Source: Candidatus Nitrosocosmicus sp. (GTDB lineage: Archaea > Thermoproteota > Nitrososphaeria > Nitrososphaerales > Nitrososphaeraceae). From it: a stretch of DNA of 64,000 nucleotides. Below are positions 25,375-28,991 of this stretch, one piece after another. The position numbers were made by a program, and so were the translations under genes. Below the pieces are notes generated by a model. That model did no database searches and had not been told where the DNA came from. It was given only the letters and a program-made list of their open reading frames with translations. Numbering within the stretch: position 1 is the first letter of the stretch; each line of letters starts with the position of its first letter. The stretch covers positions 17,802 through 81,801 of the forward strand of contig JAPSGR010000006.1 in assembly GCA_031177355.1 (NCBI GenBank). Reading direction: 5' to 3'.

Positions 25375-25917
25375 ATGGTATCTGATAAAACTATAGCCTT
25401 AGATCTTGATTCAGTTTTAGCCGACGTAATGCAAATTTGGTTGGAAGAATATAATACCATTTTCCACACTACTTTTAAAAAAGAGGATATATCTGATTGG
25501 CATATTTATAATATATTACCTATAAGTAAGGAAGAAATTTCCAATTTATTTATAACGGTTTGGAAAAACCGATGGCAAGATATTCCTCCTACTAGTAATG
25601 ATATTGCTGATGTGACAGACCAATTATTAGATCGAGGATTTAGAATTTCCATTATCACAAAAAGGGAACGGGTTACCATGCCATTTGTATCCTATTGGCT
25701 TGATCTTTACGAAATATCCTTCAGTGATATCGTCTTTATATTCGATGATGCATCAAAAAATCATTATCCGTTCTTTCTTTTAGTGGATGATTCTCCAATC
25801 AATGTGAAGGAGATTCTATCTCCTAAAAAAATAGTCGTTTTTGATCAACCCTGGAATAGATTGTTAACATCCTATACGAGGATCAAGAAATTGAATCAGT
25901 TAATTAATTTATTGTAA
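25375..25917 (+). CDS. HAD-superfamily 5'(3')-nucleotidase (NT5C-like)
   Basis: The 180-aa protein has HAD motif I in IALDLDSVLAD (second Asp present), motif II in IITKRE and motif III/IV in LLVDDSPIN. It matches the NT5C-like deoxynucleotidase group in length and cap arrangement, which removes phosphate from nucleotides. The substrate cannot be fixed from sequence. Convergent with the next minus-strand gene, one base apart. Confidence 0.75.
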   Translation: MVSDKTIALDLDSVLADVMQIWLEEYNTIFHTTFKKEDISDWHIYNILPISKEEISNLFITVWKNRWQDIPPTSNDIADVTDQLLDRGFRISIITKRERVTMPFVSYWLDLYEISFSDIVFIFDDASKNHYPFFLLVDDSPINVKEILSPKKIVVFDQPWNRLLTSYTRIKKLNQLINLL

Positions 25918-25918
25918 T

Positions 25919-26239
25919 TCATATGATTGTCTCTTTATCTGTCTTTCTATCTAACTCAATAAACATTCTATTTATTGTTGAAGTTAGCCCATTATAATTA
26001 CTCAGAAAATCACAAATTTCATCAAAAACATCCTTATTGGATGTTGGTTTCTCTAAATAATCTAACTCTATTTCCTCTTTTTCTGTTTTCATATATATTG
26101 TTAATAGATACTCTTTTGGTCTAGTTTTTTCCTCCTTTTTGTACTGCCTAATTTCGATTTTCCTTACCATTCTTCCTTCAATAATATATTTATGATCTAA
26201 AATTACCTTAGTTTTAATTAAGTTTGACGATGATTTCAT
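25919..26239 (-). CDS. conserved hypothetical small protein
   Basis: The 106-aa protein is strongly charged with alternating strand-like segments (KTKVILDHKYIIEGRMVRKI, then YLLTIYMKTEKEEIELDYL) and a helical tail. No cysteine, signal peptide or known motif. It follows the PurF-like gene on the same strand by 50 bp and may be co-transcribed with it. Confidence 0.6.
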   Translation of the reverse strand: MKSSSNLIKTKVILDHKYIIEGRMVRKIEIRQYKKEEKTRPKEYLLTIYMKTEKEEIELDYLEKPTSNKDVFDEICDFLSNYNGLTSTINRMFIELDRKTDKETII

Positions 26240-26288: not shown

Positions 26289-27668
26289 CTATTTATACTC
26301 CAAGAATCGTATCCACTCAGGGAACCACAACTGACTTTCCTTTATTTCAATTCCCTTGGCTAAAATTTCAGGAGAATTGTATAATACCGAATCAACTCCT
26401 AAATCTAAAGCTATTTCCTTGTTTAAATCATCAATATATGATATTTTGCCGATATATTTTCTACCTAGTAGATCTTTTTGCTGAGTGTATAGTCCAACTT
26501 GTCTACCATCGACTGTGGGAACATAACTTACCAATACATGTATTTCATTTACATTGGATTTCCTTAAATAATAAACAGTTTCTATAATTGTTCCTCCAGT
26601 CTGTATTGTACCTTGAATTGAAAGAATATTTTTTTTATTGGTAACTGGTTCTATGATAAATTTGAGGGTTTTACCATTGGATAATAATTTGTTCTTACTT
26701 ACTTGTTCTGAATAATCTATCATGGGGTCTGAATCGTCATACCTGTCCTTTATGATGCCTTCTACCATCTCTATTTTCTTTTTACTATTTCTAAAACCTA
26801 AGTTTAATCCCAGAGCCATGGGTCGTGTATAATCCGGCTCAGCGAGAATTAAGTCTGCATCAGCAATTTTGCTCGATAAGAATTGTGCCTGAACCTTTCC
26901 AATGTTTTTTCTTATGGAGTAAATGCTCTTACCATTAAAGATACTCGACACGTGTGATTCTCGAATAAACTCAAATGGATCCATTAAAATTCTGTTTTTG
27001 TCCAATTGTGTAAGGATTTCCATTCCAGAATTGGAATTAATGCGGATTAACTGCCCGGGATTAATTTCTCTTAACTTTAATGAGGGAAAAAAACTTTCAA
27101 TGTAATTTTCAGAAGTAACAAGAAAATTCGCTTCACTCTCTTCTTTTCCTAAAAAAAGTGGCTTAAATCCTGTACTATTTCTAAAAACATAAATTTCATT
27201 TTCTATATTTATGACATAGTTTCCTCTCAAATGTCTATCCAGAAATTCAGCTGCCTTGGATGGATCTTTTCTTATCATAAGTAATTCTCTAAAAATATGG
27301 TGGATTTGATCAAAAGGTTCAAAATTCTTCCTTTTCATTAAAGGGTGGGTTAACAATTTATCTAGATCAATGAAAAATCCATCTAAAGCGAAATTCGTTT
27401 TCTCTATTCTTCTTGCCTTTGGTTTCTTTTTTGACAAATGGCCCACTATAGCGTACATGGGATTATTCAGCTGCCTTGTAACTTTTTCATGAATTACATC
27501 AAATGCTGGTAATGATCCATATCCATTTACCTCAAATTTTCCTGCACTTATTTTCCAATAAGCCTTACCACGATGCTGGAGTAATTGCATCCCTCGAAAG
27601 ACTTGGTAAACTGATTTCTCATTGTTCGCTTTATCCATCATCCTGCATGATGCAATAATACCCCCCAT
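26289..27668 (-). CDS. degenerate PurF (amidophosphoribosyltransferase) paralogue
   Basis: The 459-aa protein aligns with PurF along its length: a glutaminase-like Ntn domain (RGMQLLQHRGKAYW, RGNYVINIENEIYVFRNS GF) and a phosphoribosyltransferase domain (the FEFIRESHVSSIFNGKSIYS block). But it starts MGGIIAS, so there is no Cys next to the initiator Met to act as nucleophile. The PRPP loop, normally with two Asp before S-I-V-R-G-T, reads LSIQGTIQTGGTI, and the loop expected near VPVPDSG reads LAEPDYTRP. Neither glutamine hydrolysis nor PRPP transfer looks possible in the normal way. It is complete and open, so it is under selection for some other role, perhaps regulatory or as a scaffold. Confidence 0.8.
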   Translation of the reverse strand: MGGIIASCRMMDKANNEKSVYQVFRGMQLLQHRGKAYWKISAGKFEVNGYGSLPAFDVIHEKVTRQLNNPMYAIVGHLSKKKPKARRIEKTNFALDGFFIDLDKLLTHPLMKRKNFEPFDQIHHIFRELLMIRKDPSKAAEFLDRHLRGNYVINIENEIYVFRNSTGFKPLFLGKEESEANFLVTSENYIESFFPSLKLREINPGQLIRINSNSGMEILTQLDKNRILMDPFEFIRESHVSSIFNGKSIYSIRKNIGKVQAQFLSSKIADADLILAEPDYTRPMALGLNLGFRNSKKKIEMVEGIIKDRYDDSDPMIDYSEQVSKNKLLSNGKTLKFIIEPVTNKKNILSIQGTIQTGGTIIETVYYLRKSNVNEIHVLVSYVPTVDGRQVGLYTQQKDLLGRKYIGKISYIDDLNKEIALDLGVDSVLYNSPEILAKGIEIKESQLWFPEWIRFLEYK

Positions 27669-27791: not shown

Positions 27792-28991
27792 TTGATAATT
27801 GGCTTGTTGGGTAAGGCAAACGTAGGTAAATCGACATTCTTCAATGCCGCCACTGATTCATCCGTACAAGTAGCTAATTTCCCATTTACTACGATTAATC
27901 CTAATATTGGAGTAGCATATGTAAGGGTTCACTGTGTTTGTAATGAATTAGGTATTTCAGATAACCCTGTTAATTCCAGATGTATTAGTGGAGTTAGGTA
28001 TATCCCAGTAAAGTTGATCGATGTAGCTGGATTAGTACGCGGAGCGCACCTTGGTCGTGGATTAGGAAACAAATTCTTAGATGATGCACGTCAGGCTGAT
28101 GTTCTAATTCATGTAATTGATATATCTGGTTCGACAGATGAGGAAGGCAAACCCGTTAATCCCGGTGAGGGTAATCCTTTTATCGATATCCAATTTGTAG
28201 AAGAAGAATTTGATCTTTGGATACGTTCAATTATTTTAAGAGATTGGGATAAGATAATTAGAGAAAGTGAAAATTTAAAACAGAGAGTTGAAACTGTAAT
28301 ATCTAATAGACTTTCCGGTCTATCAATTAATGAACAATTAATCAGGAATTCTGTGGATCAAATTGATTTGACTAAAAAACCAGCAGAATGGACTGATGAC
28401 GACTTGCTCTTGTTGAGTAAACAGATTCGCGTCAAATCTAAGCCCATTATTATAGCAGCCAACAAAGCTGATCTCCAATCCTCTGATCTCAACCTTGAAA
28501 AACTTAAGGGATTCGGAAGACCTTTCATTCCCACAGTATGCGAAGCTGAGTTGGTCTTGAAAAAGGCTTCAAGTAAGAATTTCATTTATTACTTACCCGG
28601 GGATTCAAATTTTGAAATTAAACGAGGTGATAAACTCTCGTCGGAACAAATAAGCGCTTTAAATAAGGTATCCCAAGTATTGAAAAAGTTTGGTTCAACG
28701 GGAATTCAGCAGATTCTAAATCATGCTTGTTTTCAGATGCTAAAGAAAATAGTGGTTTATCCTGTAGAAGATGAATATAAATTTACAGACAAAAATGGAA
28801 ATGTTTTGCCAGATGCAAGAATTATTTCTGCTAATTCAACTGCCAAAGATTTAGCATTTCTAATCCATAATGACTTGGGAAAAGGGTTTCTTTATGCTAT
28901 TGATGTAAGAACAAAACAGCGAATAGGTGCCGAACATATGCTAAAAAATAATGATATAATTAAAATAGTATCCACTACTGGTAGAAAATGA
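27792..28991 (+). CDS. YchF/Obg-related GTP-binding protein
   Basis: The 399-aa P-loop protein has G1 GLLGKANVGKST, a switch-II DVAGLVRGAHLGRGLGNKFL block and NKAD as G4, then a C-terminal TGS domain. This arrangement is the archaeal YchF-like branch of the Obg family, related to OLA1. The G4 motif NKAD suggests GTP use, in contrast to ATP-preferring YchF. TTG start. It overlaps kae1 by 4 bases (ATGA) and is translationally coupled to it. Confidence 0.88.
   Translation: MIIGLLGKANVGKSTFFNAATDSSVQVANFPFTTINPNIGVAYVRVHCVCNELGISDNPVNSRCISGVRYIPVKLIDVAGLVRGAHLGRGLGNKFLDDARQADVLIHVIDISGSTDEEGKPVNPGEGNPFIDIQFVEEEFDLWIRSIILRDWDKIIRESENLKQRVETVISNRLSGLSINEQLIRNSVDQIDLTKKPAEWTDDDLLLLSKQIRVKSKPIIIAANKADLQSSDLNLEKLKGFGRPFIPTVCEAELVLKKASSKNFIYYLPGDSNFEIKRGDKLSSEQISALNKVSQVLKKFGSTGIQQILNHACFQMLKKIVVYPVEDEYKFTDKNGNVLPDARIISANSTAKDLAFLIHNDLGKGFLYAIDVRTKQRIGAEHMLKNNDIIKIVSTTGRK

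Follow-up and report, generated by a model that had tools for sequence, protein, structure and literature searches.

A PurF-fold paralogue with substituted active sites, conserved across Nitrososphaeraceae

A PurF-like gene and its neighbours

The window, that is, the whole 64,000-nucleotide stretch of DNA analysed here, carries on its minus strand an uninterrupted open reading frame (26289..27668) for a 459-aa protein starting with MGGIIAS, in which a glutaminase-like half (residues 1-229) is followed by a PRT-like half (residues 230-459). We call this PurF-fold paralogue PX and use PurF1 for the canonical PurF of Nitrososphaeria. PurF, the glutamine PRPP amidotransferase (GPATase), opens the purine pathway by converting PRPP to phosphoribosylamine. 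The sole strong NCBIfam match of PX is purF, which all 27 relatives tested match too; at 66 bits PX misses the equivalog cut-off of TIGR01134 (350 bits), and annotations may well label the gene as a regular amidophosphoribosyltransferase. Beyond the closest kin of the window's PX, most relatives start with GTG or TTG, so that automatic annotation may mis-set the PX start.

A profile of the 27 relatives aligns with Nitrososphaeria PurF at E 2.5e-45 over 430 columns (profile-profile alignment, hhalign). The AlphaFold2 model of PX on a deeper alignment reaches pLDDT 87.6 and pTM 0.88 and is weak solely at residues 310-331, the flexible loop; its 17 top matches in the PDB (Foldseek) are all PurF, with TM 0.69-0.75. 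This run supersedes an earlier one on PX sequences alone (pLDDT 76.5, TM 0.37, poor domain placement). The overall PurF fold is thus present in the predicted structure, and the PurF scaffold announced in the original prediction is borne out by alignment and model alike.

The next gene downstream of PX, in the same orientation, encodes a small protein of 106 aa (25919..26239, minus strand). A gene for this ~105-aa protein follows PX on the same strand in 25/29 loci, with short or overlapping spacing, and in some loci it overlaps the PX stop. Members of the family measure ~105-120 aa, and searches of Pfam and the PDB found no relatives. On the opposite strand, an NT5C-like HAD nucleotidase gene (25375..25917, plus strand) is convergent to the pair, an arrangement also seen in several genera, and a YchF GTPase gene (27792..28991, plus strand), followed by Kae1, is divergent upstream of PX. 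YchF, Kae1 and a Bud32-like gene occupy this divergent position in most genera; in two Nitrososphaera-like genera (g3 and g12) the YchF arrangement is disrupted and its place upstream of PX is taken by leuC/leuD-like genes. No purine genes were found near PX in the loci examined.

The small protein is encoded in 26/27 Nitrososphaeraceae genomes listed in a class search and also in most of family f9 (taken as Nitrosopumilaceae), there without PX, and no match occurs outside these two families among the class genomes listed; by these matches it appears specific to ammonia-oxidizing archaea. Its neighbours in several f9 genomes, as read from sequence, are deoxyhypusine synthase-like and threonyl-tRNA synthetase-like genes, and this neighbourhood offers no link to purines. 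The small partner gene has diverged in one PX locus (L065), and degenerate-looking, frame-disrupted remnants of it stand beside an intact PX in others (L072, L089/L090), so PX may not strictly need the small protein.

Replaced and retained sites in PX

Sites were counted over 27 aligned PX and 26 aligned Nitrososphaeria PurF1 sequences, and all codon coordinates in this section are on the minus strand. At codon 2 (27663..27665) Gly replaces the catalytic Cys, which is present in 26/26 PurF1; the position is Gly in 7 PX and Ala in 20, and a C-G-[IVL] N-terminus was found in frame in 0/41 distinct PX ORFs. Two further replacements in the glutaminase-like half are common to 27/27 PX: Ser79-Lys80 (27429..27434) stands for the Arg-Tyr of GHVRY, with Ser79 aligned to the glutamine-binding Arg of PurF, and Asp96-Gly97 (27378..27383) stands for the oxyanion Asn-Gly, Asn having become Asp.

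The PRT-like half is altered to the same extent. The PRPP loop DDSIVRGTS is replaced by QGTIQTGGT (26589..26615), and Q352-G353 take the place of its Asp pair (26/26 PurF1) in 27/27 PX. Four Fe-S-type Cys, also present in 26/26 PurF1 and equivalent to the residues that act as Fe-S ligands in B. subtilis PurF, are exchanged in 27/27 PX for Asp230 (26979..26981), Gly388 (26505..26507) and, within the C-terminal QLWFPEWIRFLEY (26295..26333), W448 and E451.

What PX shares with PurF (TIGR01134; B. subtilis 1GPH/1AO0, E. coli 1ECF), besides the two homologous domains, is QHRG, the P-D and R of the pyrophosphate (PP) loop (P-D-Y-T-R-P, 26820..26837), KDRY (Lys in 24/27) and the phosphate-binding G and T of the PRPP loop; what sets it apart is the absence of the Cys nucleophile, the glutamine-binding Arg and the Fe-S-type Cys, together with the exchanged oxyanion Asn and PRPP Asp pair. 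The flexible loop, KDRYDDSDPMIDYSEQVSK (26694..26750), retains KDRY and then reverses its charge: over the 15 residues past KDRY the net charge is -3 to -6 in PX vs mostly +1 to +3 in PurF1. The 303-328 segment that holds this loop is invariant at 16/26 positions, and both GTIQTGxT and DRYDDxDxMID are found in 41/41 distinct PX ORFs.

Type I phosphoribosyltransferase chemistry makes PRPP transfer very unlikely once both PRPP-loop Asp are lost, and because PX has lost both, we consider it very unlikely to carry out this transfer. The Cys replacement taken by itself would be less telling, since a PurF that loses its Cys alone can still use ammonia, as E. coli PurF does (cited in PMC3261824). The alignment strongly supports the view that PX is without GPATase activity, with both half-reactions lost, as the original prediction had argued from a start without Cys2 and a PRPP loop without its two Asp; Gly2 does align on Cys2, and the catalytic residues did not surface under correct alignment. 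The loss of the four Fe-S-type Cys, the family-wide occurrence and the conserved small partner go beyond what had been predicted.

Distribution, selection and origin

One canonical purF (MVHENCGVV...DDSIVRGTS) is found elsewhere in the source genome, adjoining a purL-like gene, which rules out that PX is the sole PurF of its host, a possibility that the original prediction had raised against itself. A Cys-bearing canonical PurF is likewise encoded in 24/24 Nitrososphaeraceae genomes checked. A 400-genome class search placed PX in at least 59/62 Nitrososphaeraceae genomes listed, near-complete PX scoring at least 690 bits vs at most 165 bits for canonical PurF. One further genome (G015) has an N-terminal PX piece at a contig end, and the remaining two listed without PX are 69% and 83% complete. 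No PX was found outside Nitrososphaeraceae in a 398-genome sample of the phylum Thermoproteota. A viral origin was rejected, relatives of PX being absent from the viral contigs searched. A literature search did not find a paper on this paralogue.

PX is under strong purifying selection in Nitrososphaeraceae, with a median dN/dS of 0.07 (11 pairs with usable dS) vs 0.04 for PurF1 (4 pairs), and the gene is intact, as predicted. In the 24 genomes that encode both proteins, PX sequences share a mean pairwise identity of 0.57 and PurF1 sequences one of 0.68, and the divergence of PX is only 1.35 times that of PurF1. Conservation in PX reaches its maximum in the rebuilt PRT-pocket loops, where it averages 0.90-0.95 vs 0.67 across the remaining PRT domain. 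Decayed sites would not fix at new residues at ~50% family identity, which argues that the pocket has a use; these fixed new residues are our main argument for a pocket that is probably still at work.

Crenarchaeota possess a Cys-less second PurF, named PurF' and proposed to be an ammonia-dependent PRPP aminotransferase (Brown et al. 2011, PMC3261824). Basal Nitrososphaeria, like other Thermoproteota, encode second PurF proteins without the Cys that match PurF' (PMC3261824), and these frequently lie in tandem with purF. Those of four basal Nitrososphaeria families (f6, f7, f12 and f14) have an intact PRPP loop, are mostly in tandem with purF and form one clade. No PurF' turned up among the purF-profile matches in the source genome; the others there are ~570-620 aa frames aligned only to the first 200-220 positions, which we read as other class-II amidotransferases.

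In a whole-protein tree PX and PurF' each form one fully supported group, PX on the side of Nitrososphaeria PurF1, and separate trees of the glutaminase and PRT halves agree in placing PX with Nitrososphaeria PurF1. A single clade of PX and PurF' is rejected (p 0.026). By these trees PX descends from the Nitrososphaeria PurF1 lineage, and, as it stands apart from PurF', the N-terminal Cys was probably lost twice among PurF paralogues. Grouping PX with the PurF1 of Nitrososphaeraceae itself is not rejected (AU p 0.39), which is compatible with a late duplication inside this family; the stem of PX is long (2.7 units) and long-branch effects are possible.

Possible roles of PX

The original prediction suggested sensing of purine intermediates, binding to the real PurF or a new activity as possible roles, and the data allow these to be ranked. 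We tentatively favour the reading that PX is a dead GPATase serving as a non-catalytic, ligand-binding regulator or partner, most likely of PurF. An ancient duplicate of Nitrososphaeria PurF, of uncertain age given the AU result, would have lost both half-reactions and the Fe-S-type Cys and retained the two-domain fold. Its rebuilt PRT pocket may still bind a phosphorylated ligand, as the retained PP loop, KDRY and TGxT suggest, and this ligand would not be PRPP, given that neither of the Asp that bind ribose remains and that the flexible loop has turned acidic. Via that pocket, we infer, PX could act in the manner of a prozyme, most likely on canonical PurF, with the small protein encoded beside it possibly joining in this role.

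We rank this reading first because an active paralogue is present in every family genome read and the fold is whole, and because other thermoproteotes, too, have a Cys-less paralogue in addition to their PurF. Regulatory pseudoenzymes pair with an active paralogue, as in the case of the trypanosomatid AdoMetDC prozyme. PX is similar in being a paralogue, dead as judged by its residues, conserved beside an active enzyme; it differs in that its partnership with PurF is putative. Pairwise distances of PX and PurF1 covary after removal of YchF and Kae1 (partial r 0.57, Mantel p 0.0005), a weak and non-specific hint of such a partnership because control pairs also score (YchF-Kae1 0.61, PurF1-YchF 0.42; p 0.0005 or 0.001). 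Against a regulator stand the position of PX away from purine genes, the occurrence of the small partner without PX in f9, and the very high conservation of the pocket loops, which fits catalysis equally well.

Catalysis is accordingly the core of the main rival, in which a PRT-like pocket has been rebuilt to carry out another reaction, with a phosphorylated compound as its substrate, an explanation we regard as somewhat unlikely. The rebuilt motifs would be the acidic DRYDDxDxMIDxSE loop, the QGTIQTG loop, DGRQ and LWFPEW, with the D311/D312/D314 cluster perhaps binding a metal. The pocket loops are indeed the most conserved segments of PX, with invariant charged residues, and the charge shift past KDRY points the same way; however, database searches did not find the PX motifs in any known family or enzyme, ligand-sensing pseudoenzymes have conserved pockets as well, and no pathway gene stands beside PX. 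In its full form, with the PurF active site completely rebuilt, the Fe-S-type Cys dispensed with and the new enzyme a core function of Nitrososphaeraceae, we judge this account unlikely. An inactivated PurF kept across an abundant family of soil ammonia oxidizers would point either to an undescribed layer of control over purine synthesis, as under the regulator reading, or to a new reaction on the PurF scaffold.

PX might instead be a stand-alone sensor or scaffold that works with the ~105-aa protein and is unrelated to PurF regulation, which we find distinctly improbable. The conserved, closely spaced gene pair would fit such a role, as would translation-related neighbourhoods (YchF/Kae1 by PX, deoxyhypusine synthase- and threonyl-tRNA synthetase-like genes by the small protein in f9), but adjacency is not function, and with leuC/leuD-like genes in place of the YchF side in Nitrososphaera-like genomes the link to translation is weak.

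It seems highly improbable that PX belongs to PurF' (Brown et al. 2011, PMC3261824) or derives from it. Both are second, Cys-less PurF proteins alongside a normal PurF in the same genome, and Asp replaces the oxyanion Asn in 10/14 PurF' as it does in PX. However, the four Cys and the Asp pair of the PRPP loop are kept in 14/14 PurF' and 0/27 PX, PurF' is encoded beside purF and close to further purine genes whereas PX lies in an unrelated neighbourhood, and the trees leave PX outside the PurF' clade. Finally, there is hardly any chance that PX is a decaying pseudogene, ruled out by a dN/dS of ~0.07 in a gene intact across the family with its replacements fixed, or an active PurF whose Cys or Asp is hidden by a wrong start or misalignment, ruled out by the profile alignment and by the 41-ORF survey, in which PX has no alternative Cys start.
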